DNA from: Cohnella rhizosphaerae
GTDB lineage: Bacteria; Bacillota; Bacilli; Paenibacillales; Paenibacillaceae
Direction of reading: 5' to 3'
NCBI RefSeq assembly: GCF_029525575.1
Contig: NZ_JAPDIA010000005.1
Location: 1 to 64,000, forward strand
Length of the DNA: 64,000 nucleotides
The notes under the pieces: model-generated
Databases searched by the model: none
Told to the model about the DNA's origin: nothing
What the model saw: the letters and a program-made list of their open reading frames with translations, nothing else
Part shown: positions 35,185-58,035 of the stretch, piece by piece
Layout of the letters: each line of letters begins with the position of its first letter
How positions within the stretch are numbered: position 1 is the first letter of the stretch
Translations under genes and position numbers: made by a program

Positions 35185-35220
35185 GACAGCTGCGCGCCGG
35201 GGAAGGGCCACGCAGCTGTC
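35185..35220 (-). terminator. terminator after the SLH-DUF5722 gene
   Basis: On minus, GACAGCTGCG and CGCAGCTGTC form a perfect 10-bp stem with a GC-rich extension and a weak T-rich tail (GTCTTTGTC). It marks the str-side edge of the accessory island. Confidence 0.65.
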
Positions 35221-35264
35221 TTGGCGTTTATTTCGATGAAGCGAGCGCTTTCGGCTTCGCTAAT

Positions 35265-38200
35265 CTATTCTGCTGCCTCGCCCGCATAAAGATATATTCG
35301 GTATAGAAAGACTGCCGCTTCAGCCCTCGTCGCGTGTTCGACGGGGCGAATTCTTCCTTCATTGCCTTGAATCAGCCCGGCGGCCGCGAGTCTCGCTATT
35401 CCTTCGCGGGCGTAAGCGGAAATCTGGCCGAAATCCTCAAACTCAGGCGGAGATCCGGCTTCCGGCGCTTCCAGCATGCCTTGCGACCGGAGCGCCCGCG
35501 CCGCCATCGTCATCATCTCCTGCCGGGATATGACCGCGTTCGGCAGGAAGCGGCCGTCTCCCGCGCCATTCGATATGCCGTTCTGCCGCAGAGCGCCGGC
35601 AGCCCGGTAGAAGTAATCCCCCGGCTTCACGTCGGTGAAGCTCGACGGCGTATCGCCCGCAAGCCCCAAGGCCTCGACCAGCATAACGGCGAATTCGGCT
35701 CGCGTGACGCCGCGGCCCGGTTCGAAGGCCTGGCCGCCTACGCCGCCGACGATCCCTTTTGACGCGAGCGCTTCGATGCTGTCGCGCGCCCATGCATGGC
35801 GCTCCAAATCGGCGAAGCTCTTTTTTCGAGAAAGCAACCCCGAACCGCGAGAAATGGTCCGTCGCGAAGACAACGGCGCCGCTCGCGCTGTCGTATCGGC
35901 CGTTAGGAATCGGCATCATTCGCCCTTGGGCATCCACGTAATAAGCGATGATGGCACCCGGCGTCCGAAGCTCCTCCTCCGAAGGCGCATAAGGAATCGC
36001 TACCGTAATCTTGGCTTGCGGGTTGCGCCATTCTTCGGAAACGCCGTTCCGAAACAGGACGAGGTCGATCAACGGTCTGTCGCCAACTGCCTCAGCAGCC
36101 GACGGATCGAGCCGCGACCGATCGCCCGGGGACACCCGAATCGCGATCTCGCCGCCAGCGCCCTCGTCCGCCCGATCCCGCTGCAGCATGTCGGAAGGGA
36201 TCGTTACCGTTCCGAGCGCGGTTTTCACGGACACCCGGCGGTCTCCGTCGCCTGCGGCGAAAAAGCCGGCCGGCAGCTTCAGTTTATAAGAATCGACGCC
36301 CGACGTCTCCGGCAGCTCGATCAGAACCGTTCGATTGCCTCCCGCGCTCTCCGAAGCGGCATCCAGCGCCTTGGCCAGCGCTGCCGAATCCAACGTTATG
36401 TCCAGCTCCTTCGCGGCGCGGTCGAGCATCGCCGTAGCGATGCCGCCCGGCACGGCCACCTGCTGTATCGATGGCTGCTCAGTTGTCGACGGAAGGTCGG
36501 GACCGCTTGGATTCTCCGGATCGACGGAGCCGACGACCGTTACGTTAACGGATGTCTCGAACGCGCCGTATACCGCCTTGACGACTGTCGTCCCCGCAGC
36601 CTTCGCTTCCATCCATCCGTCCGGGCTCACGGACAAAATCGAACTGTCGTAGCCTTCGTACCTGGCGCCCGCCGACGCAAGCCGTCACGTCCCGTTCGCT
36701 CCCGTCCGACATCGCCGCCCGGACGGCCAGCTGCACCCCGCCCTGACCGAGCGTCATCGTCTCCGCCGTCCTCGCTGCCGAGATGCCGGTCGCCACGGGC
36801 GCCGCGGCGTCGGTGCGAATATGATCGATAAAGAAATACCCGCCCCACGGTCCCGAATAATGCGCCGTATCTTTGCCCCGATAAGAGATCTCCAGGCGCT
36901 TCACGCGATCGCGGCCCGCGAACGCGGAGATGTCCGCGGACACGGTCGTCCAGCTGTCGCTCGCGATCTGCCGTTCGACGGTTAACGTCTCGCCGCTCTC
37001 CGACGTCAGCTTGATGCCGGCGATATACGCCGACGAGGTGCCGCCCCAGCCGAAGATGTCGAACTCGACCTTGCCGTATGCGCTCAGATCGACCGGTGAT
37101 TGAAACGTCTTAGACACCTTGCTCTCGGTCGTCGCGATTTTGGCGGTTTTCGCCGCCTCCAGCATATAGCTTCCTTGCTTCGCCGCGCCCGGCGTGCCGT
37201 TCGAGGAGCCCCTTTTCACCGCGCCGACCGCCGACGTCTCGGAACCTGCGATCCATCCGTCCTGCACGCCGCCCTCGAAGTCGCCGAACACGAGGCGGGC
37301 GCCGTCCTGCTTGTAGTCCGGCACATACGCTTCGGTCAGGTCGAACGCGAACGTCTGCCCGTCCGCCGTCACCTCCAGTTTGCCCTTCTGCCCCGCGACG
37401 GGCACGATGCCGGCTATGATCGCTTCGATCCGCTCGTCTGCGCCGGGCTGCACGGACACCTGCGCGACGCTCCGGTCGAGCGCGACGCCGCCCATCCCCT
37501 TCAGGCCGACCTCGCCCGCGAAGACGCGGTTGCCCCCGTTATGCAACGCGATCGTCAGCTTGTCGCCTGCCTGTGCCTGCCCCGGCCGCGGTAGCGGATC
37601 CAGCGAGACGGACACGTTCGAGATCGCCGCAGAAGCGGCCAGGGAGACGTCGTCCACCTGCAGCGCGCCGTTCGTCCAGGCGACCTTTTCGTTCGGCCGC
37701 GCCCATATTTTGATGCGATCGACGCCGCCGAGTCCCTCCCAGCCGGTCAGATCGATGGCCACGTCGTTCCAGGACTCGGCAGACCCGACGGCCGAGCCTT
37801 CGATCACGCGAGCGCCGCTGTAGGCGCGGATCATGAACTCGGCCTTGGCGCCGGTCCCGATGCCGCTTGCCTTGACCGACGCCCGTATGACCGGCGTCGC
37901 CGACAGGTCGAGCGGAGACGCGAAGCTTCGGGTCACGCCCTTGAAATCGCCGCGGTACGTCCCCACGACGCGAGCCTTCAGACTGGCCGCGCCCGAAGCA
38001 TGATCCGTCGTGTCCCGCTCTGCGCCAGACACATTGTCCGTGCCCTTCCAGCCGTCCGCGTCGGCCTCGAAGTCGCTGAGCGGCACTTCGCCTTGTACAT
38101 CTGAAGCCGTTCCCATCCTCGCCGTCTCCTGGGCCGGTTTCATCTCCAGCTTCGACGGATCGAAGCCGGGGATGGCCTCCGCCCAATCGGCGACGCCGAC

Positions 38201-40823
38201 GATCGCCTTGGCGAACGCCGTCGCCTCCAGCGACTGGACGGTGTCGATCCGCTTGAATACGTCGTAGATCGCCTTCGGCTGGTCCGCCTCCGCGATCTGT
38301 CCTTTCATGTTGGTCCACAAGCCGAGATTGAGCCCGCCTTCGCCGGCATGATCCACGTGCCTGTGCAGGATGAAGGCGTCGATTCCCGTCAGCGACTTCA
38401 CCTTGTAATAGGCGTAGGCATACGCCGCAGCCTGAATGCGCTGCTCCTCGGGCGTATTGCCGCCGCTGTGGAAGCCTTGCTCGGACAGGATGACGTGGCG
38501 CTGGGCGCCCTCGTACGTCATCGAAGCCAGCTGCAGGTATTGCGTCAGCACCTGAAGGTTTTTGAAGGTGATCCGCTGCGTGTCGAAGCTGTCGGTCGCC
38601 GTCGTGTCCTCCCACGTTTTCGGATCGAACAGGTCCTCCGGATACGGATGGAAGGCGACGTTCCACGCATAGTCCCCGCCTTCGCGGGCCAGCTTGGCCA
38701 GCGCGTCCACGAGCGCCCTGTTGCTGTAGATCCACTGCGAGTCCGGCGACTGGTAATCGTTCCAGAAATGGTCGAGCGAGATGTACACCCTCCCGCTCGC
38801 GTTCACGCTGCGCACGATGTTGTAGGTCAGCCGGAGCTGGCGCTCGTACTGCTTCACGTATTCGCCCAGCAGCTTCGGCCCCATGTTGTTCCACACCTTA
38901 TTTTGCCCCACCTCGTTGCCGACGATATAGCCCGCCAGCCTGCCGTAGGCCCGGTCCGCGCGCGAATAGCGCTCGGCGAGGAAGCGGGTGATCGCCGCGT
39001 AGTACCGGACGCCTGTCTCGTTCGTCAGATTCGGCGCGAACACGGTTCCTTCCGCCGTGGCGTCGGGATGCACGATGTCCTTGTTGGGCGAGTCGGGGTC
39101 CGTCATCCCCGTCCGGTACAGGATCAGAATCGCGGTCACGGCCATTTGATTGTCCGTCATCGATTTGATCTGGCTGTCGAGGCCGTCTACCGCGGATTTT
39201 CGGAAATAATAAGTTTGGCCCTCGTACGTAAAAGGAATCGAGGAGGCTCCGTGGTCGGTGAGCGTCAGCATCTCGTTGTAGGCGATATTGATCGCGCCGT
39301 GCCGCACGCCCAGTCGCTCGGCGTCCGCCGGCAATTGCACCTGCAGCCCCTTGATGCTGTCGGTGACCGGATAAGGCTCCCGGTTCGCGGCCAGCGCCTC
39401 GGGATTGGTCACGTACTTCGGCCCGTCCGCCAGCGCGAATTCGCCGCCGTCCGCCAGCACGGCGACGAACTTGTCGTACGCCCGGTTTTTGGCGCCCTCG
39501 ACCGCCGGGAACGAAAGGCTGAAGGTCGGTCCCGCAGCGCTCTCCGCAAGCGGAGTCATGGACGCGAAGTCCGCCTCTTTCTCGTCTTCGTACAGAGGCA
39601 GCGCGTAGATCCCGACCGTCGCGCCCGGATGGGCGGTCAGATAAGCGGCGTCCACGCTTCCCTCCGCTGCCGCAACCGCCGGATCGCCGGCGACGGTCAG
39701 ACGCTCGAGCTTGCCTTGATACGCGTAATCGTCCACGTTGCGGAGCGCAAAGCCGATCTTGTCGATGTCCAGCGTCGTGCCGGCCGCCGCTCCCTCCGGA
39801 TAAATGCGGATGCGATCGACGATGCCTTTCCATAGCGGGCTCGTCATCACCAATTCGTAATCCGCGAACATAGCCGCGTCCGAGGCCGGGAACGACTGCG
39901 ACTTCGCCTCGTCCCAATTCGGATCCTCGCGCGTCGTCCAGGCGACCTTAAGGCTAGATGCGCCTGTGTCGCCGGCCATCCGCAGCAGGACGGCATTGCG
40001 CTTCGCTGCGTCCAGGGACAGGCCGGGCGACTCAAGGTACGATTCCGCCGGATCCGTCACCGTATAGATCAGGGAGCCCGACGCGGCCGACTGAACGGCC
40101 GTGCCCGACGCGGCGACGAAGCCTTCGTCCGAGCCCGGGATATGAAAGTCCAGATCGGCGGCCGCCGTCGCGGCGAGCGAATCGATCTGCAGCCTGCCGT
40201 CCCAATATTCGTAGCCGGGATCCCCCGAAGACATGCCTTCCAGATCGTAATTCTTCATATAAGAGATCGACATCCCGTCGATGCCGGCTCTGCCGTCCCA
40301 TTCGCGGACGTCGAAGTAGACGACGTTCCACTTGTTGGCCGCGATCCCGGATATCGCCTCGAACGTATCGTCTCCGCTATGCAGCGTCAGCTTCACGAAG
40401 AAGTCGTCCTGCTTCCAGCCCCAGATGTCGACGGCGGCGGCGATGAAGTTCGCGTCCGACAGGTCGAGCGGCGCGTCGAAAGCGCGCGAGATCGTGCGCC
40501 ATTCGTAAGCCTTGACCTTTAGGGGCGTCACCTCGAGCGCCCCCGCGCCCTCGAACGGCGCCCCCCGGCGCGTTCAGCAGCGTGCCGGTCACGCCCGTCT
40601 TGTCCACGTTCGGGCCGGGCGTCCACAGCGCCGCCTGCGAAGCATCGTTAAAGTCGTTAATCATCCGCAGCGGGTAGATGGCATGCCCTTGATAGGCATC
40701 CTTCTCCGTCAACGTCGGTTCGTAAGCGCCGGCCAGCGCGCCGGACCCGCCGATCAGCTGAACCAGCATGGAAGCGATTGCAATAATGATGATCGCAGTC
40801 GTTCGAAATAAGCGATGTCGCAT
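35265..40823 (-). CDS. giant cell-surface protein: DUF5722 domain, carbohydrate-binding-like modules, Ig-like domain and three SLH domains (frameshifted)
   Basis: About 1850 residues after joining four frames. Signal peptide about 1-32 (IIIIAIASMLVQLIGG core); beta-rich, jelly-roll-like segments at about 50-330; a DUF5722 core at about 490-880 with IVGNEVGQ (near 636) and ILSEQGFHS (near 781); two more CBM-like modules at about 915-1070 and 1180-1340, each opening with a DFExxxDGW-type strand; a Big_2-like Ig domain at about 1340-1430; and three SLH domains at about 1660-1850 (FADLERHAWARDSIEALASK; FTDVKPGDYFYRAAGALRQN). SLH domains bind pyruvylated wall polymer, so the enzyme-like part should be displayed outside the wall. 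Three +1 shifts: C6 near 40560, one near 36670 outside a run, and T6 near 35825. The substrate is unknown. Confidence 0.82.
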
Positions 40824-40955: not shown

Positions 40956-43647
40956 TTAAACGCCGAAGCCGACCTGATCGACCTGATACTTGGCGTTCCA
41001 GAGCGCCGTCGAATCGGTACTGAACCATATCTTGATCTTGTCGACGCTGCCCTTGTAAGGCCAAGCGCCGGCGTCCATCGAGAACTTGTTCCATGCGTTC
41101 GGCGTCATCGTCGCCTTGCCTTCCAGCACATGGCTGCCGCTGTACAGACGTACGGTCACCTTGTATTGGGTGGCACCTGGACAGCCGCCGTAGGCGTCGA
41201 TCGCGAACTGGAACTTCGGAGCGGCAGTCGCGTCGACAGGCGCGGCGAACGTCTTCACGATTCCTTTTTCCGCCCGCGCGCCTCCGACGCCGTCGCCGGC
41301 CGTCGCCGTGTCCATCGTCACTTCCAGCGACCTGGTCCCCGCGAACGGCGTTCCCGGCGCGTTGGCGAAGCTCGACACGGTCGCGACGGACGCCGCATAT
41401 TCGGATGCCGTCCATCCGTCGGACGACGTCTCGAAGCCCGATAAGGCCAGAGAAGGCGCGATCGAACCGACGGCGGACAGCGTTCCGGCCGCGGGGGGCT
41501 CGCGATCGGCGAGCTGAGCGGCATTGTAGCCGGGAATGACGCTCGCCCAGTCCGAGATGCCGATGATGCTCTTGGCGAAGCTCGCGACGGCTGCGGACTC
41601 GCTCGTATCGATTTTTTTGGAACACATCGTAAACGTACTTGGGATCTTTGGGGGCCGATGCGGCGGATTTGGTCGGATCGCGCGTCCACAGGCCGAGATT
41701 CAGCCCGCCCTCCTGGCCGTGATCCACGTGCCGGTGCAGGATGAACGAATCGATGCCGCCGAGAAACTTGGCCTTATAGTAGGCGTAGACATACGCAGCG
41801 GCTTGCGTCTTCTGGTCGGCCAGCGAGTTGCTGAGCGAGTGAAAGCCTTGCTCGGACAGGATGATCCGGCGTTTGCTCCCGTTGTACAAGTAGTCGGAAG
41901 CACCGATGTAGCCGGTCAGCACCTGGAGGTTTTTGAAATTGATGCGGAGCGTGTCGGCGGACGCCGTCGCGGTCGTATCGTTCCACACGGTCGGATCGAA
42001 CAAGTCTTCCGGGTACGGATGATAAGCGATGTTCCACGGAATGTTGCCCTCCGCCCGGATGCGCCGGTTGAACTCGTCGAGCAGTGCCTTGCCTTTGTAC
42101 GTACGGAGGGCGTCCGTCCCGACGCTGCCGTTCCAGAAGTGATCGAGCGAGATGTACGTCCGGCCGTTCGCGTAATATTTTTTGACCGCCGTCTCGGCGA
42201 TGCGGTAAGCGCGGGCGTACTGCTCCACGAAATCCTGCAGCGTCTTCGACCCCATATCGTACCAATAAGCCTGCGAGTTCACCTCGTTGCCGACGATATA
42301 GTTGACCGCCCGCCCGTACTGTTGGTCGGCTCTCGTGTAGCGGCTCGCCAGAAACTCCATGCCGGCCTTCCAGTAACGGGTTCCTTCCGCGTCCGTGACA
42401 TTGATGGCGGCGACCGTGCCGCTGCCCGAAAAACCCGGATGCTTCAGCTTGGCGGCAATCGTCCCGGTATCCGGATACAGAATGAGAATCAGACTGACGA
42501 CGACGCCCTCGTCGGACAGCGTCTTGATGTCGCGATCCAGCTGCGCCACGTACGAGGCGTTCAAATAATAGGTCGTTCCGTCCAAAACAAAAGGGACCGC
42601 GCCCGCCGCGCTGTCGACGAACAGCTGGTTGAACGCGACGTTCAGCGCCGCGTGGCCGATGCCGAGCTTCTGGGCGTCGTCGATCGTCTGCACCTGAAGT
42701 CCCTTGATCGAGGCGGCTGTCGGAAAGGCGTACGTATTGACCGGCGCCGTCTGAGAGGTGATGTAGGTCGGGCTCGCAACCAGCTTTTTCGTGGCATGGT
42801 CGACGACGACGAACTTGGAATACACCTTGTCCCGGGAGCCGCCGTATCTCGTTCCGCTCAGCGTGAAGCTCGCGACGCCGCCGCTCGGCGCGACGGATTG
42901 CGTGGCCATGGCCGTATAGGAGGCGGTCATATCGTACTTTTCATAGGGTTGCAGCTCGATGAGGTCGAGCTGCGCAGAAGCGGAAGTCGCATACGTGCCG
43001 GAAAAGCTTATTTGCGTCGCCGAAGCCGTCGCCTGGCTGATCGAGCCCGGATAGGCGGCGGGATAAGCGGAAAAGCCGACGTTGTCCAGTTGATGCTTGC
43101 CGGCCCAGTTCGTCGCGAAGGTAACGGAGCGATAGGCGACCTCGATTTTCGTAATGGCCGTTCTGTAGCTCCAGCCGCTTAAGTCCACGCTGAGCTCGTT
43201 CCAGCGGTCCCCCTGAATGGCCTGCGTGGATACGAACGTCTGGCTGTTGCTGTAAAACGTAATTCGCGCTTCGAACTGGGTGTTGGACGCATCGATGCCG
43301 TAGGTGTTGAACGCGCCGTGGAAGTAAGGCACGGACGAGACGTTCAGCGCCGGGGAAAAATCGCGGTACACCGACCGCCAGGACGTGCCGGGCACGCCCG
43401 CCGTCGTCAGCTCGGCCATCCGGTTGCCCGCGTAGGGCGCCGCCGGCGCGTTGGCGCTGCTCGCCACATGGGAGAGCGCGGTCACGTTGGCTCCCCATTG
43501 CCAGCCGTCGGTGCCGCCTTCGAACCCGCCGATCTCGGCGTCGAGCACGGCGGCCGACGCCCGTCCCCCGTCTCCGGAAGGCATGAACGGCAGCAGCAAA
43601 GCCAGGCAGACCGTCGCGGCCAGCCAACGTTTGGATATAAGCTTCAT
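40956..43647 (-). CDS. secreted DUF5722-domain protein (frameshifted)
   Basis: About 896 residues, a paralogue of the next gene downstream but without the wall anchor. It has a signal peptide (about 1-33, cleavage after ASA), a CBM-like beta module at about 35-200 (GGFEGGTDGWQWGANVTA), a DUF5722 core at about 310-700 with IVGNEVNSQ (near 453), SLDHFWNG, HPYPEDLFDP and ILSEQGFHS (near 597), and a C-terminal CBM-like module (GFETSSDGWTASEY) to the stop. The frame breaks once, in the T7 run at about 41613-41619, where VFQK should continue IDTSESAAVASFAKS; the length of 3n+1 agrees. ATG 43647 follows GAGGAGG. The two paralogues are head-to-tail, 132 nt apart. Confidence 0.82.
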
Positions 43648-43679
43648 CACAAGCCTCCTCTTGATCGTGCTATCTATAT

Positions 43680-47080: not shown

Positions 47081-47977
47081 CTACATTTTTAAGGCGCCCT
47101 GGACCATCCCTTGAATGTAATACTTCATGCCCAGCGAGAAAATAACGATGAGCGGCAGCGACGAGATGGAGTAGGCGGCGAACTGGACGCCTTTGTCCGT
47201 AATGCCGAACTGCTTGGTGAACTGCGTCAGCCCGACGCCGATCATCTGCATGCTGCTGTCCCGGATCGTGAGAAGCGGCCAGACGTAATCGTTGTAAGTG
47301 CCGACGGTCTGCATAATAAATATGGTCGCCAGAATGGGAACGGACAGCGGGAGCACGATACGGGCGAATACGGTAAACTCCTTCGCGCCGTCGATGCGTG
47401 CCGCTTCGAACAGCGAGGACGGGACGGACGCCATCGAAGTCCGGCACAGGAAGGTGCCGAAGATTTGCCCGCCGGCCGCGTGCGCGATGATGATGGCAAG
47501 CGGCGTGTTCGTCAGTCCCAGCTTCTCGTACCAGACGTAAGCGGGGATCAACGTAAGGATGCCAGGCACCATCATCATGGCGAGCAGCAGCAGGAACAGG
47601 AACTCCTTCCCCGGGAACGCCTTCTTCGCGAACACATAGCCGGATACCGCGGACAGGCCGACGACGAGCAGACTCGCCCCTCCTGCGTACAAAATCGTAT
47701 TGAGCACGTAGCGCCAGATGCTGGCGAACGCCTCTCCGTAGTTCTCCCATTGCGGCGGCGAGGGCAGCGACCAGAAGCTGCCGAGAATCTGCGAGTTGCT
47801 CTTCAGGGAGCTGTAAAACATGAACAGAATCGGGACGAGCGTCAGGACGATCAGCAGCGCGAGCGTCCCGATCAACAGCGCCTGACGGACGGCCGACGGG
47901 CTCGGCATCGGCAGGCCGGCGATCGTTCTGGGCGCGCTCGTCGCGCGAACCGGCGCGGGCATAGGCATCCTCCTCAC
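47081..47977 (-). CDS. carbohydrate ABC transporter permease, MalG type
   Basis: 298 residues, six membrane helices, with the EAA loop EAARIDGAKEFTVFARIVLP that docks on the ATPase. The family moves oligosaccharides. Its ATG overlaps the stop of the upstream permease fusion by four nt (translational coupling). No ATPase gene is in the operon; Bacillota often supply a shared MsmX-type ATPase from elsewhere. Confidence 0.93.
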   Translation of the reverse strand: MRRMPMPAPVRATSAPRTIAGLPMPSPSAVRQALLIGTLALLIVLTLVPILFMFYSSLKSNSQILGSFWSLPSPPQWENYGEAFASIWRYVLNTILYAGGASLLVVGLSAVSGYVFAKKAFPGKEFLFLLLLAMMMVPGILTLIPAYVWYEKLGLTNTPLAIIIAHAAGGQIFGTFLCRTSMASVPSSLFEAARIDGAKEFTVFARIVLPLSVPILATIFIMQTVGTYNDYVWPLLTIRDSSMQMIGVGLTQFTKQFGITDKGVQFAAYSISSLPLIVIFSLGMKYYIQGMVQGALKM

Positions 47978-49893
47978 TCCTGCGAGCTTCGCAGAAACTT
48001 CATGTTGACGACCGTGATGATCAGGATGACGAAAAACATCGAGACGCCGAGCGCCGAGGCGTAGCCAAGCTCGTCGAACTTGGTCGCGGCGTAATACATC
48101 TGCAGCGCGGGCACGTAGGTCGAATCCATCGGTCCCCCGCCGGTCACGATCAAGATAGCGTTAAAGTCCTGAATGACGCCGATCAGCGTCAGGATGATCA
48201 GAAATTTGAACTGTCCCGCCAGCAGCGGCAAATGGATGGAACGGATAATGCGCGGCAGCCGTGCGCCGTCCATCTTGGCGGCTTCGATCAATTCGTCGGG
48301 AATGCCGATCAGGCCCGAATAGAGCACGAGCAGCTGCAGGATGCCGACGAACGGGAAGCCGATGAAAATAACGGCCCAAATCGCCGTCTTCGGATCGCCG
48401 AGCCACGAGTTGGTTAATCCGTCCAGGCCGACGGCTTCCAGGAAGCGGTTGATGAGTCCGACGTTCGGGTCGTACAGGTTTTGCCAGATCAGCAGCAGCG
48501 CGACTGCCGGCACGATCATGGACGTCACGAACGCCGTTCGGAAATAATACTGGAGCCGCTTGCTTTTCAGATGATAGATCAGCTCCGCTACGAACAGCGG
48601 GGGCACGATGGCTTTGAGAAGGCCCGTGACGATCAGAATGCCGAGATTAACGATGCCTTTGCCGACGTAGTCGTCGCTCAAGATTCTGCGAAAGTTCGCC
48701 AGGCCCACGAACGAAGATCTCCCGCCGGGGTTCCATTCGTAGAGCGAGTGGTACAACCCGGACAGCGCAGGCACGTACATGAAGCCGATCAGCAGAATGA
48801 AGGCCGGAGACAAGCACAGATAGATCCACTTGGCCTGCCAGATGCGTTTGAAAACGGATAGCCGGTTATATTTTTTGAGCAGGTAAAGCCCGGCGGCGAT
48901 CAATAGTAAAGCGGCCGCGGCCGCGGCGATCTGCACGATTCGTTTTTGCGCCGCCGCGGATTCGGCGCCCGCAACGACGTTCTCCACATCGTAGCTGTAG
49001 ATGCCGCCGTTCTCCGTCCCGCCGTACAACGTCTCGCCCTTCGCGCCGAACGCGAGCTGCGTCGCCGGAGCGGGCACCTGCGTCTGCCAGATCGTTTTGC
49101 CCGACGAGGAGATCAGATAAAAATGACCGGCATAATCCGCCGCGCCGATCGTCTCTCCGTCCGGCGTCAGGGTGACGTCCTTGACCGAATCGAGCACGGC
49201 GATCTCGCGCAGCTTGCCGCCGTCGCGATCCAGGAGCACGACCGCCGACGTCGTCAAGCCCGCCGCCACGCGGCCTTCGTCCGATACGGCCACGCTGCCG
49301 ATCGTGCCGTTCATGCCGGCTTTGAACAGGACGTTGCCGCTGCCGTCCAACAGATACACGTTCTGATCCTTGCCGCCGACCGCGATATAACCCCCGCCCG
49401 GAGCCGCAGCGACATCGGCCGCGCGGGCGCCCAGCGACGCCTTGCCTTGCGTCGTTCCGTCGGCCGGGTCGATCAGGAGCAGCTCGGAGCTGTTCTGTAC
49501 CGTCACGGCTGCCGTAGAACCGTCAGTCGACGGCGCAACGCCTTCGACGCGTTTTTTCAGATCCTGCTTCCACAGCAGTTCGCCGCCCAAGCCGAAGGCG
49601 TACAAGCTGCGGTCGTCCGAGGACGCCAGCAGCCGGTCCGCGCCGGCGAAGCCCACGCTCGTGACGACGTTGCCGGTCTTCATGACGGCGATCTGCTTGC
49701 CGGCCTCGTCGAACAGATAGACATGCGTGTCCGAGCTGCCGACGGCGAGCAGCTTGCCGTCCGGAGACATCGCCATCGCGGTGACCGATTTTCCTTGTTC
49801 CAGATTCCACGCCGTTTGCGCCCGCGCGCTAACCGGCGCGAGCAGCAAACACAGCGCTATAATGGCCCAACCCAGCTTCCTGGCTTTGCGCAA
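47974..49893 (-). CDS. fusion of a secreted beta-propeller and a MalF-type sugar ABC permease
   Basis: 639 residues in one open frame. A signal-peptide-like start (about 1-25, ending ARA) leads into WD40/PQQ-type repeats at about 28-310 (AMSPDGKLLAVGSSDTHVYL; TLTPDGETIGAADYAGHFYL). Then comes one helix at about 322-340, a short basic linker, and a complete MalF-like permease at about 350-639 with the EAA loop EAAKMDGARLPRIIRSIHLP. The topology predicts an extracellular propeller tethered in front of the channel. It pairs with the downstream MalG-type permease. The junction lies in a single frame without homopolymers, so it is not an assembly artefact of the kind seen in neighbouring genes. 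Confidence 0.9.
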   Translation of the reverse strand: MRKARKLGWAIIALCLLLAPVSARAQTAWNLEQGKSVTAMAMSPDGKLLAVGSSDTHVYLFDEAGKQIAVMKTGNVVTSVGFAGADRLLASSDDRSLYAFGLGGELLWKQDLKKRVEGVAPSTDGSTAAVTVQNSSELLLIDPADGTTQGKASLGARAADVAAAPGGGYIAVGGKDQNVYLLDGSGNVLFKAGMNGTIGSVAVSDEGRVAAGLTTSAVVLLDRDGGKLREIAVLDSVKDVTLTPDGETIGAADYAGHFYLISSSGKTIWQTQVPAPATQLAFGAKGETLYGGTENGGIYSYDVENVVAGAESAAAQKRIVQIAAAAAALLLIAAGLYLLKKYNRLSVFKRIWQAKWIYLCLSPAFILLIGFMYVPALSGLYHSLYEWNPGGRSSFVGLANFRRILSDDYVGKGIVNLGILIVTGLLKAIVPPLFVAELIYHLKSKRLQYYFRTAFVTSMIVPAVALLLIWQNLYDPNVGLINRFLEAVGLDGLTNSWLGDPKTAIWAVIFIGFPFVGILQLLVLYSGLIGIPDELIEAAKMDGARLPRIIRSIHLPLLAGQFKFLIILTLIGVIQDFNAILIVTGGGPMDSTYVPALQMYYAATKFDELGYASALGVSMFFVILIITVVNMKFLRSSQE

Positions 49894-49920
49894 GTCATCA
49901 CCCTCTCCGATGCTTCGAAG

Positions 49921-49965
49921 CGCGGCGTCCCGCGCGGACCGCAGGCGCGCGAGCGGGACGCCGCG
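49921..49965 (-). promoter_or_regulatory. intercistronic hairpin between binding protein and permease genes
   Basis: CGCGGCGTCCCGC and GCGGGACGCCGCG form a 13-bp perfect stem with no following T run. Such hairpins typically protect the binding-protein mRNA and lower permease expression; that role is inferred here. Confidence 0.6.
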
Positions 49966-49971
49966 TTATTC

Positions 49972-51658
49972 TTATTTCCGCTCCGGCGGCTGCCGCTCCG
50001 GCGTCTCCAGATCGGACAGCTCCTTCTTTTTTATCCTTCAGCGCAGGCTCCAGATACTTGTCGACCGTCGCTTGATATTTGGTCAAGTACTGGTCGATCG
50101 TCATCTTGCCGCCGAAGTATTGCTGGATGAGGCCGACCCACTCTTGCACGGAGGGCTGATAGTCCCACAGTCCGCGGGCCAGCATATTGTTCGCGCTGGT
50201 GAAGCCTTCCGTATTGCCGATCGGCTCGAAGTTCGCGAACGCCTTCGCCATCTCTTCGGGCAGCTCGATATCCTTCAATGCCGGCGCTCCCGCGATCGAA
50301 GCATCCTTGCTGTTCTGAATGGCGGTCACGTACACCTTGTAGCCTTCCGGACTCGTCAGGTACATCATGAAGTCGACGCCCAGTTCGGTTTGCTTGGCAT
50401 CCTTGGATACCAGACCGTAGAACCCGATCGGGATCTGGATCGTGCGCGCGGGCGCCAGCACCCCTTCGCCTTCCATCGACGGCATGTTGAAAAATCCGTA
50501 TTCGAATGCCTTGGCGCCGCCTTTGGCGCCCGATTTTTTCTCGTCGGCCAAGTCCTTCGGCAGCTGCCAATAGGCGCCCGGGGTCGTGAGCATCGTCGCC
50601 GCCTTGCCGGTCAGGAACAGGCTGTACGCCTGGTCCGCGTTCACGCCGAAAAATCCGGGCTCGGTGTACTGGAACAGCGTCTTCAGATTTTCCATAAACG
50701 CCTTCCACTGCGGATTGCCCTCGATCTTGAACGGCCCCGTTTTATCCTTGATCGCCTTCCAGACGCGGAGATCGTTCTTGGTTACTTTGCTGTTGGAGTC
50801 GTTGTACGGATCGGTCGGATCGTACTTCCAGACGTCGTCCACGCCGGGCACGAAGTTGTAATCGTTCGGCTGCGAACGGATGACGTTAACCGAGTCCCGC
50901 ATATATTGGTCGCCGTATACCCGCACGAGCCAGCCCGCCTCGCCGCTCCACATCGAATTGGAGTTGCCCGCGAGCGACAGCGGAATGTAGCCGGCCGCCT
51001 TGATTTTTTTGAACGCTTCGATCAGTTCGTTAAACGTCTTGGGCGCTTGCGTCACGCCGGATTTGTCGAAAATCTCCTTGTTGTACAGCCAGACGATCTG
51101 CACCGATTCGAAGTTAAGCGGATACAAATGATCGTTTTCTCCGAGCGCATCCAGGTTGATGCCCATCGTGCCGAGATCGAGGCTCTCCTTCCACGCTTTG
51201 CCCGTATACGGGTTGTTCTTGTCCAGCCAGGGCAGGAAGTCCACGAACTTTTTGTCGTCCTGCAGGCTGCCGACTTCGTTGATGACCGCCAGGTCCACGT
51301 CCGGCGTGCCTGCGGCGAATTGGGAGGTCAACCATTCTTTGTAGCCGTCCATCGGTTTGTTGTCGACGGCGATCTTAACGCCCGGGTGCTTGGCCATGTA
51401 GGCGTCCGCGACCGCGTTCCATACGGAAGCGGAGGCGTTTGGCAGCGATATTTTGAAAGTTCCCGACAGCTCCGAACCGGCCGGCGCGGATGCCGATCCG
51501 GAAGGGGATGCAGACGCGGATGGGGCCGATGTAGAACCGTTGGAATCGCTTTCAATCGGAGGCGATGAAGTTTTGCCGTTGCCGTTCGAGCATGCGGCGA
51601 CCATGGCGATCGCCAAAGTGGAGCCGACGACCGGCAACCATTTGTTCAGGGCTCTCAT
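49972..51658 (-). CDS. extracellular sugar-binding lipoprotein of the ABC system (frameshifted near its end)
   Basis: About 561 residues. Lipoprotein signal with lipobox AIAMVAAC (Cys 23), a Ser/Ala/Pro/Gly linker (about 30-70) and a family-1 solute-binding domain (FKISLPNASASVWNAVADAY; TFNELIEAFKKIKAAGYIPL; FLTGKAATMLTTPGAYW). It delivers a carbohydrate to the two permeases encoded next. An A6 run (plus T6 near 50028) has one base too many; read as A5 the tail becomes LKDKKKELSDLETPERQ and stops at 49972. ATG 51658 follows GAGGAGAGG; a TTG five codons upstream is unlikely. Confidence 0.9.
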
Positions 51659-51680
51659 AGGACCTCTCCTCAACTAAATT

Positions 51681-51784: not shown

Positions 51785-52903
51785 TCATTCGTCTCCGTTC
51801 CATTCGGCCGTGCTGTCGCGAACGATCAGACTTGGCTCGATCTCATCCTTGCTGAACGTTTTGCCGCTCGCGGCCTCGCCTTCGAGCAGCAATTCAACCG
51901 CCCGCTTGCCCACCCGGTACGTATTCTGATTGACGGACGACAGGCTGGGACGGACGTAGCTGCTGACGAACAAATCGTCGTAGCCGACGACGCTGACGTC
52001 TCCGGGGATGGCAATGCCCCTGCGCTCCGCCGCTTTCATCGCGCCGAACGCCTTGATGTCGCTCGTCAGAAAGATCGCCGTCGGCGGCGCGTCCAAGTCC
52101 ATGAGCCGGTCGAAGCCCTGGGCGCCCGAGTCGGCCTGCTCCATGGTGCCCTCGATGACGACGACGAGCGTCGGATCGAATTCGATCTTATACTGCGACA
52201 GCGCCAGCTTGTAGCCTTGAAAACGCAGCGAGAACTCCTGATTGAGTCCCGCGACCGAGCTTCCCGTCAGCACGATGCCGATCCGCCGGTGGCCGATCGA
52301 GAGCAGATGCTGGGTGGCGAGGTATCCGCCCGTCATATTGTCGACGATGACGTACGGGATCTGAAGATGCGGAAAATAAAAATGCACCGTTACGATTTTG
52401 CGGCCTTCGCTCTTCCAGCCGGCCACGATGTCCGCCGATACGAAGTCCGTCTCCATCGCCCCCGGCAGCAGAACCAGGCCGGAGCGCTCGGAATTCGGCG
52501 GCAGCTTCTCGCGCTCCCCGATATCCCATAGCTGGAATTGAACGCGATTTTCCTCGCATTTCTCGTGCAGCCCGCGCAGCAGGTCGGCGAAAAAGCCATG
52601 GTTGAACTGCTCGACCGGCAGCGCATGATAAATCAAATAAATAGTCTCGATGCGCGCTTCGGCGCCGGATGCTTCGGCGTAGGCGCGGCTGACGTAAGAG
52701 CCTTTGCCGCGGACTCTGTAGATGAGCCCCTCCTGGGCCAATTCGGTCAACGCGCGCCGCGACGTAATTTCGCTCGTTTCATATAATTTGGCCAGCTCGA
52801 TCTGCGATGGAATCGGTTCTTCGGTCGAGATCTCGCCGTTTAATATTTTTCGTTTAACGTCGTCAACGATCAATTGGTACATCGGACGCTTCACTGTCTT
52901 CAT
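51785..52903 (-). CDS. GntR-family regulator with LacI-type sugar-binding domain
   Basis: About 372 residues from ATG 52903 (MKTVKRPMYQLIVDDVKRKI). A winged-helix GntR DNA-binding domain at about 1-70 (IPSQIELAKLYETSEITSRR; GLIYRVRGKGSYVSR) is joined to a periplasmic-binding-like effector domain (GYLATQHLLSIGHRRIGIVL; AIPGDVSVVGYDDLFVSSYV), the architecture of AraR. It probably represses the downstream sugar operon and itself until a sugar binds. Both promoters carry TATACTT half-sites. Confidence 0.9.
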   Translation of the reverse strand: MKTVKRPMYQLIVDDVKRKILNGEISTEEPIPSQIELAKLYETSEITSRRALTELAQEGLIYRVRGKGSYVSRAYAEASGAEARIETIYLIYHALPVEQFNHGFFADLLRGLHEKCEENRVQFQLWDIGEREKLPPNSERSGLVLLPGAMETDFVSADIVAGWKSEGRKIVTVHFYFPHLQIPYVIVDNMTGGYLATQHLLSIGHRRIGIVLTGSSVAGLNQEFSLRFQGYKLALSQYKIEFDPTLVVVIEGTMEQADSGAQGFDRLMDLDAPPTAIFLTSDIKAFGAMKAAERRGIAIPGDVSVVGYDDLFVSSYVRPSLSSVNQNTYRVGKRAVELLLEGEAASGKTFSKDEIEPSLIVRDSTAEWNGDE

Positions 52904-52931
52904 GCTGCTACTCGCTCCTCCCGTCACAAAC

Positions 52932-52971
52932 CTAGTATACTTTACCGATTATTTGAATGCAAAGTATATTT
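52932..52971 (-). promoter_or_regulatory. regulator promoter with overlapping operator half-sites
   Basis: On minus, TTGCAT (52957-52962) and TATACT (52934-52939) are 17 nt apart. TATACTTT (52936-52943) and its inverted copy AAAGTATA (52961-52968) overlap the -10 and -35, so autoregulation is likely. Confidence 0.6.
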
Positions 52972-53045: not shown

Positions 53046-54056
53046 TCAGGCACGCTTGAGCAGCAAGTAAATAAAATACGGCGCGCCTATAAAAGAAACG
53101 ACGATGCCGGCCGCGATCCCTTCCGGCCCCGCCACGTTCCGTCCGATCGTGTCTGCCAGCAGCAGAAGGAATCCGCCGATGAGCACGGCTGCCGGGACGA
53201 AGCGCTGGAACCTGGGACCGACCAGAGACTTCGCGATATGCGGCGCCATCAAGCCAACGAATGCGATGCCGCCCGTGACGGCGACCGCGGACGCCGCCAG
53301 CGCCACCGCGGCGAGCAGCAGCAGACCGCGGTCCCGGGAGATCCGGACGCCGGTGCCCATGGCGGTCGCGTCGTTCAGCGACAGCAGGTTCAGCGCATTG
53401 GATTTGTACATCGTGTACGGGAGGAGTACGAAGAGCCATGGCAGTTGGGCCCAAAGGAAGGTCCAATCGGTCCCCCACACGTTGCCGGCCAGCCAGCGCG
53501 AGATGAAGTCGACTTTGTAAATATCGACCGCGGACGTAATGAACACCATGAGCCCGGCAAACGCGAGGGAAAATCCGATGCCCGTAAGAACGAGACGCAT
53601 GGGATGGAGCCCCGATTCGCGGCTGTAGGAAAAGGCGTAGAGCAATATCGCCGTCAGAAGCGCTCCGATAAAAGCCGACACGGGTATGACGTAGACAAAG
53701 GCGCCCGGCTCGGACGGAATAAGCAAAAAGCTGACCGCGACGCCAAGTCCCGCTCCCGAATTAATGCCCAGAATGCCGGGATCGGCCAGATCGTTGTTCG
53801 TCACGCCCTGCAGGATGGCGCCCGACAGGGCCAGCGACATGCCGGCCGCCAGGACGATGCATATGCGGGGCAGACGGAGATCGAACAGGACGAACTTTTC
53901 CTTGAACGCTCCGTGTCCGAGCAGCGTCGGCAGGATTCGATCGTAGGATACGGAAGATGAGCCCAATCCCAAGCTTACGAAAACGGTCAACAGGATGAGC
54001 GCGGCGAGCGCCAAGAGCAAGGCGCGCTGCTTGCGAATCGAACGGGCGTCGGTCAT
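53046..54056 (-). CDS. iron-siderophore ABC permease, FecCD family (second)
   Basis: 336 residues with about nine or ten helices. Family blocks: LPRICIVLAAGMSLALSGAI, QGVTNNDLADPGILGINSGA and GGIAFVGLMAPHIAKSLVGP. It forms a heterodimeric channel with the adjacent permease. Its ATG overlaps that gene's stop by four nt. Confidence 0.93.
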   Translation of the reverse strand: MTDARSIRKQRALLLALAALILLTVFVSLGLGSSSVSYDRILPTLLGHGAFKEKFVLFDLRLPRICIVLAAGMSLALSGAILQGVTNNDLADPGILGINSGAGLGVAVSFLLIPSEPGAFVYVIPVSAFIGALLTAILLYAFSYSRESGLHPMRLVLTGIGFSLAFAGLMVFITSAVDIYKVDFISRWLAGNVWGTDWTFLWAQLPWLFVLLPYTMYKSNALNLLSLNDATAMGTGVRISRDRGLLLLAAVALAASAVAVTGGIAFVGLMAPHIAKSLVGPRFQRFVPAAVLIGGFLLLLADTIGRNVAGPEGIAAGIVVSFIGAPYFIYLLLKRA

Positions 54057-55057
54057 GGGACGGTCTTCACTCCTTTGCGCACGATAAACAGGAAGAACGG
54101 CAGCCCCATGATCGCGATAATCGAAGCCATCGGCGCCTCGTAAGGCGCGATCGCGTTGCGCGCGATCGTGTCCGCGGCGAGCATGAAGAGCGCGCCGACG
54201 ACTGCCGACATCGGCACCACCTTGCGATAGTCCGTACCGATGAGGAATCGTACGATGTGCGGAATCATAAGGCCGACGAACGCCATGTTGCCGACAAGCG
54301 CCACGGACGCGCCCGTCAATACGATGACCGCGGCGTACAGGATCAGCTTGATCTGTCCGGTGCGAAGTCCGAGGCCGACGGCGGCTTCTTCATTGGCGCT
54401 GAGCAGGGTGAGCGCCTTGCCCAGAACGATGGCCGCGACGACTCCCGCAGCGATGAACGGCGTGATCGTGGCGATCTGTTGCCAGTTCGTGCCGATGAGA
54501 CCGCCCGCCGTCCACATCGATACGCTTTTGGATATTTTAAAGGCAAGACCGATGCCCTCCGCTACGGCATACAAAAACATGGACACGGCCGAACCGGCGA
54601 GCACCATCCGGATCGGAGACATGCCTCCTCTACGCGAGACGCCGATGCCCAGCACCAGGCAAGCGCCGATCCCCGCGCCGACGAAGCAGGCGACCATCGT
54701 GCCGAAGTAGCCGACGGCTGGCATGAGGGCCATCGTGAACGCCAGCGCCGCATTGGCGCCCGAGGACAAGCCGATCAGACCGGGATCCGCCAGCGGATTG
54801 CGCGTCAAGCCTTGCATGATTGCGCCGGCTACGCCAAGCGCCGCCCCGACGATCATAGCTGCCGTCTCGCGCGGAAGACGCAGCTCGCGAAGCGCGGTGA
54901 ACTGTTCGCCCTCGATACGGGTGGTCAATGCGAGCCATACGTCGCGGACGGACGTCTCTTTGGCGCCGAACACCATCGAGACCGCGAACATGCAGGCCAG
55001 CGCGATGAATCCGGCGACGATGGCCAACGCAAAATTCATTTTCTTATTCGAGTTCAT
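54053..55057 (-). CDS. iron-siderophore ABC permease, FecCD family (first)
   Basis: 334 residues, multi-spanning. LPRETAAMIVGAALGVAGAI, QGLTRNPLADPGLIGLSSGA and MAFVGLMIPHIVRFLIG identify a BtuC/FecCD permease. It lies 80 nt after the binding protein, with a hairpin (55092-55119) between them. No cognate ATPase is encoded in the operon. Confidence 0.93.
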   Translation of the reverse strand: MNSNKKMNFALAIVAGFIALACMFAVSMVFGAKETSVRDVWLALTTRIEGEQFTALRELRLPRETAAMIVGAALGVAGAIMQGLTRNPLADPGLIGLSSGANAALAFTMALMPAVGYFGTMVACFVGAGIGACLVLGIGVSRRGGMSPIRMVLAGSAVSMFLYAVAEGIGLAFKISKSVSMWTAGGLIGTNWQQIATITPFIAAGVVAAIVLGKALTLLSANEEAAVGLGLRTGQIKLILYAAVIVLTGASVALVGNMAFVGLMIPHIVRFLIGTDYRKVVPMSAVVGALFMLAADTIARNAIAPYEAPMASIIAIMGLPFFLFIVRKGVKTVP

Positions 55058-55137: not shown

Positions 55138-56176
55138 TCAGTTGCCGAGGAACTTTTCCTTAAAGAACGCAAGCTGCCATTCCAGCGTCATGGCGTCGTT
55201 AAAGTAGAACGTCCGCGCATCGACTTCGTATACGCGATTGTTTTTTTACAGCCGGTATATTTTTGTACGTAGCGGTCTGTTGGAAGGAAGCGTCGGCTCC
55301 CGGTTCCTTGCTCAGAACGATGTAGTCGCCCGCGTAATCGGGCAGCACCTCCGCCGAGAGGGTGAAGTAGCCGTCTTTCGCGGTCGCTTCCTTGACCTTG
55401 GGCTGCATGTTCAGGCCCATCAGCTGGAACAAAACCTCGGTTCCGCGTCCCCAGGCATCGCCGAACGTGTACACCTCTTTGTCGTACGCCTCGAAGACCG
55501 AGACGGTGGCGTCCGCTCCGATCTTGGCCTTGATTTGCTCGCCTGCTTCCGTCGCCCGTTTTTTAAAATCGTCGATCCATGCCTGCGCTTCCTTTTCCTT
55601 GTTCAACGCCTTGCCGATCTCCAGATACTGCGTCAGATAGTCGACTTTGTTGTACGTATAGGTGACGAGCGGCGCGATCTGCTTCAGCTTATCCTGATTT
55701 TTGCTGTCGGAAGATCCGATGATAAGGTCGGGCGACAGCTCGATGATTTTTTCTACGTCTTCGTCGGACACCTCGGTCACGCCTTGAAGCTTCTCTGCGA
55801 AGCGAGGGTTGTTCAGCGACCACGAGTCGACGCCCACCAGCGGAACGCCGAGCTGGAGCACATCGCCCGTATAGCCGGACAGGACGACGACGCGCTGCGG
55901 ATTGGCCGGCACTTCGATCGGACCCGCTTCGGACGCGTAGGTGATCGTGCCGGTCTGCGCCGCGACAGACGGGCTTGCGGAGGGATTCGCGGATCCGGTC
56001 GCCGAAGCGCTTGCCGTGGCTGCGGCGGAACTTTTCGAGTCTGGCGAAGCATTATTTCCGTTCTTGTTGTTGCCGCATGCGGCCAGCGCAAAAACGACGA
56101 CCATCAGGCATGCAACCATCAGCATGCGTTTGCCGATTTTACGGCCGCTCAAATACGAACTTGCCTGTCCAATCAT
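55138..56176 (-). CDS. iron-siderophore-binding lipoprotein, FecB/FhuD type (frameshifted near its end)
   Basis: About 345 residues. Lipobox FALAAC (Cys 34), a Ser/Ala-rich linker to about 80, then a class III binding fold (EVPANPQRVVVLSGYTGDVL; VEKIIELSPDLIIGSSDSKN; FGDAWGRGTEVLFQLMGLNM). An A7 run (plus T7 near 55232-55238) must be A6 for the frame to continue NNRVYEVDARTFYFNDAMTL to the stop at 55138; the length of 3n+1 agrees. It is the first gene of an iron operon controlled by tandem Fur boxes. Confidence 0.9.
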
Positions 56177-56198: not shown

Positions 56199-56231
56199 AA
56201 TGATAATCATTATCATTGATAATCCTTATCA
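56199..56231. promoter_or_regulatory. two tandem Fur boxes
   Basis: AATGATAATCATTATCATT (56199-56217) is a near-perfect 19-bp Fur box, and TGATAATCCTTATCA (56217-56231) is a second, sharing one base. They lie between the -10 and the binding-protein ATG, so Fur-Fe(II) would block transcription when iron is sufficient. Confidence 0.88.
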
Positions 56232-56233
56232 TT

Positions 56234-56262: not shown

Positions 56263-56336
56263 TAAAATATCGGCGTTGATTAGCGTGAAGCGCTCGTGAA
56301 GGAAGAGAAACGATATCGGATCGGCGGCAGCTCGGG

Positions 56337-57224
56337 TTACATCATCCTCCCCGATCCTAGCGTGACCGAATCGACGGAGGCTCCAGCTTCCAGCAGCTCC
56401 CGCAGCAGCGCATCGCTGCTCGCAGGCTCGGTCCAGTAGACGGCTTGCCCGCTCTCGGTTCGGCATCGCAGCACCCCCGGCCAGCTTGCGAACGTCTTCG
56501 CGTCCTCCGCTTTTCCCTTCGGCCACTCGCACACGATTCGGCGCCAGCGTTTCCTTTCCTCCAAGTCGGCCGGCACCGCGACCGATTGAATCCGCCCTTC
56601 CGATATCGCCATGATCCGCGTCGCCCACTGGTTGACCAGCGCGTGCTCGTGGCTCGCTACGACGATGGCCGTTCCTTGCAGCCTCAGACCAAGCAGCATG
56701 GAAGCAAGCGCGCTTTGCGCTTCTTCATCCAGACCGCCGATCGGCTCGTCCAGCAACAGCAGCTCCGGATCGCCCAGCAGCGACTGCACGAGGTTTACTT
56801 TTTGCAGCATGCCCTTCGAGAAAAACCTCATTTGCTGTCCCGGCTTGTCGCGCAAGTCCACCAGTTGGAGCAGCTCCTCGATCTTCCTCTCCCTCGTCGC
56901 AGCCTCCAGCCCTCGAATCGAGCCCATATGGTTCAAATATTCGCGTGCCGTGAATTTGAGCTTCGGGAGATGATCGGGCGCATAGCCGATGATGAGTTTG
57001 CCGCCTTCGCCGGATCCGCTCACTTCTCGTTTGCCGGAAGAGAGCGCGGAGAGGCCTGCCAGCAGCTTAAGCAGCGTCGTCTTGCCCGAGCCGTTGGGAC
57101 CGGTGACCGCCACCGTCTCTCCCCTGCTCAGTTCCAGCGAAACGCGGTTAAGCACCGTTTTCCCTTTTAAACTTTTGCTCGCCTGCACTAAACGGAGTAT
57201 GACGTTCGGATTCAAAGTCTTCAC
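56337..57224 (-). CDS. ABC transporter ATP-binding protein (CcmA/YtrB-type)
   Basis: 295 residues. Walker A TGPNGSGKTT, signature-like FSKGMLQKVNLVQSLL, Walker B LLLLDEP and a His switch in VASHEHA mark a complete ATPase of the export type; the last 80 residues are a substrate-specific extension. It follows the small membrane-protein gene in the same direction. No larger permease is adjacent, so the partner is unknown. It is unlikely to be the FecCD ATPase, because its closest-looking relatives serve drug or peptide exporters. Confidence 0.88.
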   Translation of the reverse strand: MKTLNPNVILRLVQASKSLKGKTVLNRVSLELSRGETVAVTGPNGSGKTTLLKLLAGLSALSSGKREVSGSGEGGKLIIGYAPDHLPKLKFTAREYLNHMGSIRGLEAATRERKIEELLQLVDLRDKPGQQMRFFSKGMLQKVNLVQSLLGDPELLLLDEPIGGLDEEAQSALASMLLGLRLQGTAIVVASHEHALVNQWATRIMAISEGRIQSVAVPADLEERKRWRRIVCEWPKGKAEDAKTFASWPGVLRCRTESGQAVYWTEPASSDALLRELLEAGASVDSVTLGSGRMM

Positions 57225-57554
57225 TCCCGTTCTTTAACGGACCTTTCTATTTATAATATTAAAATTAAAGTCCGTTTCACTATGCGTTTATTCACAATCC
57301 GGCTGGAATTATCCCGAACTTGTGGGCATTTCGAGGAAAGAGGGGAGCATCTTTATGCTTTTCTCGTTTATTCACAAGCGTTTCGGGTCTAAAGCGGCTA
57401 TCCCCCCGTGGACAAGTGTCGGAGGATCCTCCTCTATTCACATGTGAACAACCGCGCGGCACGTTAAAAAAACCCGTTCGCTCGCTTCTTGAAGAAGGAG
57501 GCGAACAGGTTGTTAGGAGATCGGAAAGCGGGACACCCTTTCCCTCATCCGCGT
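57225..57554. other. AT-rich intergenic region with DnaA-box-like sites and an inverted repeat
   Basis: No gene is seen here. It contains AACGGAC (57236-57242) facing GTCCGTT (57270-57276) around an AT-rich, promoter-like core upstream of the ATPase gene; TTATTCACA at 57288-57296 and 57368-57376; a variant CTATTCACA at 57434-57442; and a terminator at 57466-57511. Confidence 0.6.
57466..57511 (-). terminator. terminator after the small membrane-protein gene
   Basis: On minus, AACCTGTTCGC and GCGAACGGGTT pair around an inner CTTCTT/AAGAAG stem and are followed by TTTTTTT. It separates the membrane-protein gene from the ABC ATPase gene, which therefore needs its own promoter. Confidence 0.8.
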
Positions 57555-57867
57555 TTAGAATGCGTCCAGAAAAAAAACGACGTAAATGGCAGCCAGCAGC
57601 CATATTACAGGGATGAACCCCCACCAGAGCGCGCCTTTGAACCTGCGCTTGTGGTAAAGCGCCCAGCTGACGACCATGCTGACCAGCAGCGCGACCGGAT
57701 AAGCCCAGTAAAAAAACGACGACTGCGAACGGCCATGTGTCAATGACGGAGTCCGGAGAATCCAGAGCAATAAAAGAAGTTAAGGCAATGACGACCCAAG
57801 GAACGATGAGAAGGACAAAGATGAGCTGGCTAATCAGCAATGCAGCGGCTGCTTTCGCATTTTTCAC
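57555..57867 (-). CDS. small three-helix membrane protein, function unknown (frameshifted)
   Basis: About 103 residues after removing one base: helices LLISQLIFVLLIVPWVVIAL, AYPVALLVSMVVSWALYH and WWGFIPVIWLLAAIYVVFF, with a basic loop (HKRRFKGAL). The frame breaks at a T7 run (minus; 57713-57719), and T6 joins AVVVFYWAYPVALL. I start it at GTG 57867, GGAGG ten nt upstream. I do not recognise a family. It is the last island gene before the rpoC terminator. Confidence 0.7.
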
Positions 57868-58035
57868 GGTCGTTCGGCCTCCTTGCCCTCCGGCTCTTTT
57901 CCGCAAGATGAATACATAGGCATAGCCGCCTACCCTTCACCCGATTTAGGGCGTTTTCTAGAGTTTACCCGTTTTTGAAGGGTTTCGTAAACAGTCGCCA
58001 CGCCCCACCCTTTTTAAACGCTTACGTCCATGAAC

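Follow-up and report, generated by a model that had tools for sequence, protein, structure and literature searches.

The operon cluster that includes rpoBC, str and S10 has been defined and surveyed before. In the parts of Brandis 2021 (PMC8046335) drawn on here, 163 alterations are reported in 204 genomes, a small gene insertion is usually the first step in the separation of an operon pair, and operons more than 10 kb apart count as fully disconnected; the published examples include tusDCB at the rpoBC-str junction and ilv/leu genes at the junction of str with S10. The string 'paenibacill' was not found in the main text of that paper, the part to which the search was confined (supplements apart). 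Here, we describe the rpoBC-str junction of Cohnella rhizosphaerae in a window of 64,000 nucleotides, meaning the whole stretch of DNA analysed (positions 1 to 64,000 of contig NZ_JAPDIA010000005.1, our contig C3, in assembly GCF_029525575.1, which comprises 8.5 Mb in nine contigs at 91.5% completeness). In this window, 23.1 kb of accessory genes lies between rpoC and the L7Ae-family gene at the head of the str operon. A preliminary description of the same DNA saw one 23-kb accessory island of eleven genes. We count twelve genes, all in the same direction, which form at least three modules with differing distributions among relatives and not one island. Insertion between operons of this cluster is already published, and the Cohnella junction is a well-resolved new example with unusually complete intermediates. 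Among the papers listed by literature searches on Cohnella and its glycosidases, none describes the locus.

The arrangement is derived. RpoC and the L7Ae protein were sought in a family set of 118 genomes and a genus set of 37, together 143 distinct genomes; both markers lay on one contig and strand in 124 of these, 102 from other genera and 22 from Cohnella. The gap between the two genes is 177-737 bp (median 242.5) in all 102 measurable genomes of other genera, as expected if, in line with the preliminary description, a contiguous cluster has undergone an insertion or rearrangement; in the 22 Cohnella it ranges from 132 to 23,771 bp. L7Ae had no match in 8 genomes of the family set and 14 of the genus set, the four of other genera without one were left out of the gap count, and in G120 the markers are split between contigs. 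The distance from rpoC to rpsG, obtained for 36 of the 37 Cohnella, falls into three classes: 0.9-3.4 kb in 30 genomes, 6.7-6.8 kb in three and 24.0-24.7 kb in three, so that the window genome and two others exceed the 10 kb of full disconnection. As a side observation, the L7Ae protein has no match at E<=0.001 in those 14 Cohnella, yet rpsG is present in 37 of 37, so this protein has been either lost or strongly diverged. The rpsG and L7Ae matches of G122, for which 7% contamination is listed, are multiple and spread over different contigs.

The composition of the insert can be followed across six close species: the window genome (G000), C. ginsengisoli DSM 18997 (G124), G125, Cohnella sp. 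JJ-181 (G131), Cohnella sp. GbtcB17 (G134) and OV330 (G138). Twenty fetched stretches from 18 genomes were aligned to the window, and the layout is nested, with the whole block in G131 and G125 and only the 5.8 kb on the rpoC side in G124, G134 and G138. The preliminary description would have called the arrangement old and ordinary if the interval were gene-rich in all close relatives; it is enlarged in all six species, but in three of them it reaches only 5.8 kb. The first layer, a pair of genes for an ATP-binding cassette (ABC) ATPase and a permease, extends furthest. Beyond the close group there are 31 Cohnella, from which 17 intervals were examined: eight (G122 among them) have both genes, four have fragments and five have neither, so that 12 of the 17 retain the pair whole or in eroded form. 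The second layer, an importer of the FecCD type with Fur boxes, is present in 6/6 close species. Among the matches found, its iron substrate-binding protein occupies the rpoC/str position in these six species only, at 82-86% identity to the window copy; other Cohnella have homologues of 52-70% at other places, and no match at E 1e-50 was obtained in 10 of the 37 genomes.

The third layer, a sugar-uptake and glycosidase operon of 17.7 kb, is found at the locus in three of the six close species (G000, G125 and G131) and is absent from the locus in G124, G134 and G138. We also looked for copies elsewhere through one of its products, a fusion of a beta-propeller with a permease, scoring 33 candidates per genome. 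The operon was not seen elsewhere in G124 or G138, whose best matches cover the permease half only, and G134 has at best a 53% relative, at another locus. A related operon (59-86% identity) does lie elsewhere in G132; the fetched stretch ends within its homologue of the second DUF5722 gene, ahead of which no separate first DUF5722 gene was seen.

The boundaries of the insert carry signals of their own; all genes and signals of the locus given here and below lie on the minus strand unless stated otherwise. Upstream, rpoC (58114..61731; five RNA-polymerase Rpb1 domains, 1-5) ends at a 12-pair hairpin followed by a run of seven T (58041..58067, -22.4 kcal/mol). Downstream, the str promoter TTGACA-17-TAAGAT (35019..35047) stands 57 bp from the ATG (34962) of the L7Ae-family gene (34708..34962, PF01248), which we take to be of the rplGB/ybxF type. 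The strong terminator and the consensus promoter of the preliminary description are therefore both there. This promoter is the first block 3' of the insert that all six close species share. Between it and the sugar operon lies a terminator-like hairpin (35178..35222, -25.5 kcal/mol) that the window shares with G125 and G131; of the three, only G131 has a good T run after it. A str promoter with a perfect TTGACA was present in all 50 rows scanned, that is, in 46/46 distinct genomes (four rows are duplicates, and L107, a Gemmatimonadetes match, was unused), which argues that the junction was already an operon boundary before anything was inserted. The rpoC terminator has another distribution: 17 of 19 Cohnella and 6 of 27 Paenibacillus have, behind rpoC, a hairpin of -10 kcal/mol or better with a T run (Fisher p=1e-5, uncorrected for kinship). 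Thus, the promoter, at least, predates any insertion, while the terminator is mainly a Cohnella feature. It had been proposed that the insert was tolerated thanks to the str promoter and the rpoBC terminator; the first half of this idea agrees with a pre-existing promoter, and the second with the terminator that most Cohnella have.

Taken together, we consider it probable that the insert has a layered history, in which an existing operon boundary took up self-contained modules step by step and part of the sugar operon was later exchanged. The rpoC/str junction of Cohnella would be a transcriptional boundary at which such modules collect. The ATPase/permease pair would have entered early in Cohnella, the Fur-controlled importer before the six close species separated, and the sugar operon, most simply, before the same split, with two later losses, one in GbtcB17 and one in the line of C. 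ginsengisoli and OV330. Importer and sugar operon would bring their own control, in the form of Fur boxes for one and, for the other, a regulator of the GntR/LacI type and palindromic sites at two promoters, and the terminator-like hairpin together with the str promoter would insulate str and leave ribosomal expression undisturbed. Later, homologous exchange between lineages would have replaced part of the sugar operon. What the sequences show directly is the layers with their distribution, the signals at the boundaries and the unequal synonymous divergence; from these we infer the order of gain and the insulation of str in vivo.

The ancestry of the sugar operon depends on the species tree. 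A tree of 17.3 kb of housekeeping sequence, with G129 as outgroup, reads (G131,(G000,(G125,(G124,G138)))), with supports of 86, 100 and 98; G134, which is not in that tree, pairs with G000 in the rpoBC, str and importer trees. On the housekeeping tree, unweighted parsimony accounts for the operon by one gain and two losses, three steps in all. We favour this solution because the carriers have the operon at the same position and share its hairpin, and so, most simply, it was ancestral to the six close species and was lost twice. The main competing account is that the operon was gained repeatedly, or was passed sideways into the window lineage, instead of being ancestral. Three independent gains likewise cost three steps, and G134, the closest relative of G000 in most trees, is without the operon. 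In addition, synonymous divergence (dS) between G000 and G125 in the operon is low relative to the backbone. However, the three carriers agree in gene order, in the position between fecD and the str promoter and in the hairpin, and the dS of the operon to G131 is about that of the backbone. We therefore regard repeated gain or sideways transfer as unlikely, while granting it real weight.

Divergence is unequal across the layers. We expressed the G000-G125 dS of each gene as a ratio over the mean distance to G131, which gave 0.51-1.03 for 16 housekeeping genes, 0.70-0.76 for the ATPase and importer genes (four) and 0.29-0.66 for the sugar operon (seven genes; Mann-Whitney p=0.0005 against the 16 housekeeping genes, and p=0.0009 against all 33 others, ribosomal genes included). 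The lowest values within the operon belong to the second permease, the GH106-like gene and the second DUF5722 gene (0.29-0.36). The simplest cause of the low dS would be an exchange between lineages, later than their split, that affected part of the sugar operon. Among the flanking core genes, the ratio is 0.30 for the L7Ae gene, 0.66 for rpsL, 0.93 for rpoC and 1.02 for fusA. Separately, the ATPase and importer genes (53046-57224) show dS values of 0.68-1.14 among G000, G125 and G131, about twice those of neighbouring housekeeping genes.

Several observations weigh against the layered history or its individual steps. The flank DNA tree joins G125 and G131 at 87%, unlike the housekeeping tree, and in a tree of the str side with outgroups G000 is not paired with G134; since the flank trees differ, local exchange or weak signal remains as the explanation of this conflict. 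The ratios of the regulator, the substrate-binding protein, the fusion and the first DUF5722 protein (0.49-0.66) are close to the control range, and rplJ (0.22) and the L7Ae gene, short genes of the ribosomal block, are as low as the lowest of the sugar operon. Taken singly, the promoter matches have modest scores, which 0-7 of 50 shuffles equal. Behind the hairpin of the sugar operon, the window and G125 have a weak T run. The equal parsimony cost of three gains belongs in the same list.

Three further accounts concern how the block came to be where it is. If all 23 kb had arrived at once as a single horizontally acquired island, by site-specific integration, one could understand its patchy presence and the G+C content of most of the sugar operon (62-68%, above the flanks), although the latter is not decisive. 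Subsets of the block occur alone in relatives, however, G124, G134 and G138 holding layers 1 and 2 without layer 3, and dS differs between layers. No integrase, transposase or other mobile-element Pfam domain was found in the proteins scanned and no tRNA in the interval. The end regions contain only short imperfect repeats within themselves, with no exact repeat of more than 8 bases between the three junctions. We consider a single island very improbable. The SNAP model, by which a segmental duplication followed by asymmetric loss would have moved genes of the same genome to the junction, is discussed in the consulted parts of Brandis 2021 (PMC8046335) as a means of avoiding what a direct insertion would cost, and homologues of the iron substrate-binding protein and of the sugar operon do exist elsewhere in other Cohnella. 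Against it, G000 has a single rpoC and a single rpsG, and no duplicate flank was seen there; we think this route distinctly unlikely for the present locus. Finally, an assembly error might be suspected in an assembly with frame breaks and the completeness given above. The same 23-kb block stands in the same place in two other assemblies, on an 8.67-Mb contig of G125, a genome in two contigs, and on a NODE_ contig of G131, which disposes of the false join that the preliminary description had wished to see excluded and makes the chance of an artefact practically nil.

Returning to the layered insert itself, its reading frames need some care. Relatives have open frames where the window has broken ones, namely in the GH106-like gene, in the two DUF5722 genes and, probably, in the small gene next to rpoC. 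One surplus base in a homopolymer accounts for most of the breaks, which also affect rpsL, rpsJ, rplB and other genes; for these reasons homopolymer sequencing errors are the most likely cause. Such breaks occur at 34134-34554 of the window and elsewhere, and relatives have intact copies of the genes. Decay of the sugar operon into pseudogenes was considered and is not favoured, given the breaks in essential genes. The rate of breaks in the operon equals that outside by one count and is about twofold by another, which is not significant: gaps not divisible by three amount to 0.53/kb in the operon (9 in 17.1 kb) and 0.53/kb outside (24 in 45.1 kb), where roughly half of them compensate each other, and uncompensated +1 gaps number 9 and 12, respectively (binomial p=0.09). 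The assembly should be polished before its gene counts are trusted.

From the rpoC side, the insert begins with a gene for a small membrane-type protein (57555..57869), probably frame-broken here; an open reading frame of 103-122 amino acids occupies the position in four of the five close relatives, and its product has no Pfam family above the cut-off. The ABC ATPase of layer 1 follows (56337..57224, PF00005). In relatives it adjoins a permease of 234 amino acids, for which no match was found in the joined G000 stretch, the window being short of about 680 bp near 56263-56281. The ATPase was considered as a part of the iron importer and rejected, since in relatives it is paired with this different permease; it thus belongs to an older ATPase/permease pair whose permease partner is absent from the window genome. 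Layer 2 comprises an iron/siderophore-type substrate-binding lipoprotein (55199..56176, PF01497) and two FecCD-family permeases (54053..55057 and 53046..54056, both PF01032). Upstream of the lipoprotein gene are two adjoining Fur-box-like 7-1-7 palindromes (56201..56231), one exact and one with a single mismatch to the consensus. Matches with up to two mismatches number three in the window, the third (two mismatches) at 19771, where 0.06 would be expected. The layer, which is without a dedicated ATPase, would serve iron-siderophore uptake; its Fur boxes support the iron uptake named in the preliminary description.

Layer 3 opens with a regulator that joins a GntR helix-turn-helix to a LacI-type sensor (51785..52927, PF00392 and PF13377). 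An inverted pair of TATACTTTRC elements before it (52936..52968, strand unassigned) is a likely operator; it is conserved in G125 and G131, and G132 has a differing version. The pair TATACTTT/AAAGTATA stands at the regulator's own promoter, and a related pair precedes the gene for the carbohydrate substrate-binding protein (49898..51673, PF01547). Next come the fusion, in which a beta-propeller predicted to be exported is joined to a MalF-like permease (47974..49893), and a second sugar permease (47081..47977, PF00528), presumably MalG-like from its position. The fusion protein has a signal-peptide-like start, then a WD40/PQQ-like beta-propeller and then the sugar ABC permease; matches over 628-639 of its 639 amino acids occur in 18 of the 37 Cohnella, mostly at other loci. 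The GH106-like protein (alpha-L-rhamnosidase family; 43777..47068, partial match to PF17132) is spread over three reading frames in the window and is one frame of 1080-1098 amino acids in G131 and G125. Two DUF5722 proteins complete the operon, the first at 40956..43662 (PF18989) and the second, split by frame breaks, at 35265..40823 (PF18989, PF21253 and PF00395), with a galactose-binding-like domain and three S-layer-homology domains.

This domain content agrees with the surface polysaccharide use proposed in the preliminary description, and the operon is likely to serve degradation at the cell surface and the import of an oligosaccharide, by which it would be induced. One could guess from the GH106-like protein that the substrates are rhamnose-containing polymers; its Pfam match spans positions 268-534 of the 743 of the profile, and its NCBIfam score is far below the cut-off. 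A low-confidence model of a DUF5722 protein (pLDDT 52) matches barrels of the GH5 and galactanase type, and also GH20 enzymes, with a best E of 1.5e-5, TM up to about 0.5 and a root-mean-square deviation of 7-12 Å. A glycosidase of clan GH-A would be expected to have a (beta/alpha)8 barrel with two catalytic glutamates; in DUF5722, the glutamates of the NE and SEQG motifs are invariant across four sequences. DUF5722 has no sequence match in the PDB, and literature searches on DUF5722 and on propeller-permease fusions in Paenibacillus found nothing.

It is tempting to speculate further that the rpoC/str junction of Cohnella is a growing docking site within a gene cluster that ranks among the most conserved in bacteria. 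Homologous recombination with anchors in rpoC and str would bring cargo in, remove it and exchange it among species, and the promoter/terminator pair would keep such swaps neutral for ribosome synthesis. We offer this idea tentatively, as a possibility rather more apt to fail than to hold. If it were true, the tuf-rpsJ junction, one operon downstream, would be a second such site. That junction (about 29.8-30.2 kb in the window) is variable too: it was measured in 36 of 42 rows and spans 247-3386 bp. A chemoreceptor of 554 amino acids with HAMP and MCP domains lies there in G124, G138, G131 and G125. G134 retains only a C-terminal match of 43 amino acids, just past tuf, and the window has no chemoreceptor in its gap of 368 bp.

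How does the locus compare with systems already described? Like siderophore ABC importers of the FecCD type, layer 2 has a substrate-binding protein, two FecCD permeases and Fur boxes; unlike them, it has no dedicated ATPase, the neighbouring one coming from another pair. Polysaccharide-utilisation loci of Gram-positive bacteria combine a regulator, a substrate-binding protein, two permeases, glycosidase-like proteins and an enzyme anchored by S-layer-homology domains, and their sugar ATPase gene is absent from the operon. The sugar operon shares all of these features; the propeller-permease fusion and the two DUF5722 proteins are additions, and the location differs.

At the level of the genome, the junction resembles the hotspots without mobile elements treated in the parts of Oliveira 2017 (PMC5635113) consulted here, in that variable genes are concentrated in one core interval, integrases are absent and there are signs of homologous exchange. 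Turnover in this one core interval is high, with tuf-rpsJ as the sole other interval compared. In contrast to those hotspots, the variation is between species and not between strains, the cargo layers are few, and the exchange is seen in the cargo while being unproven in the flanks.

The closest parallel remains the insertion of genes between operons of the same cluster. In the window, extra genes lie between rpoBC and str at a distance above 10 kb, the ancestral state is contiguous and the operons are intact, str being counted as such since the break in rpsL is most likely a sequencing error. The break-up of the cluster has so far been reconstructed mostly between distant species. Here, a single genus displays a near-empty junction, a small first insert, its erosion, a second insert and the 23-kb state, and with these stages living, relatives can be used to test whether selection on gene order is relaxed once a first insertion has occurred, also through the expression of the str promoter. 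Thus, as in the cases presented in the consulted parts of Brandis 2021 (PMC8046335), genes have entered an operon junction and left both operons intact; in contrast to them, the Cohnella insert has built up at one site inside a single genus, intermediates are still living, and its cargo would serve the uptake of sugar and iron.

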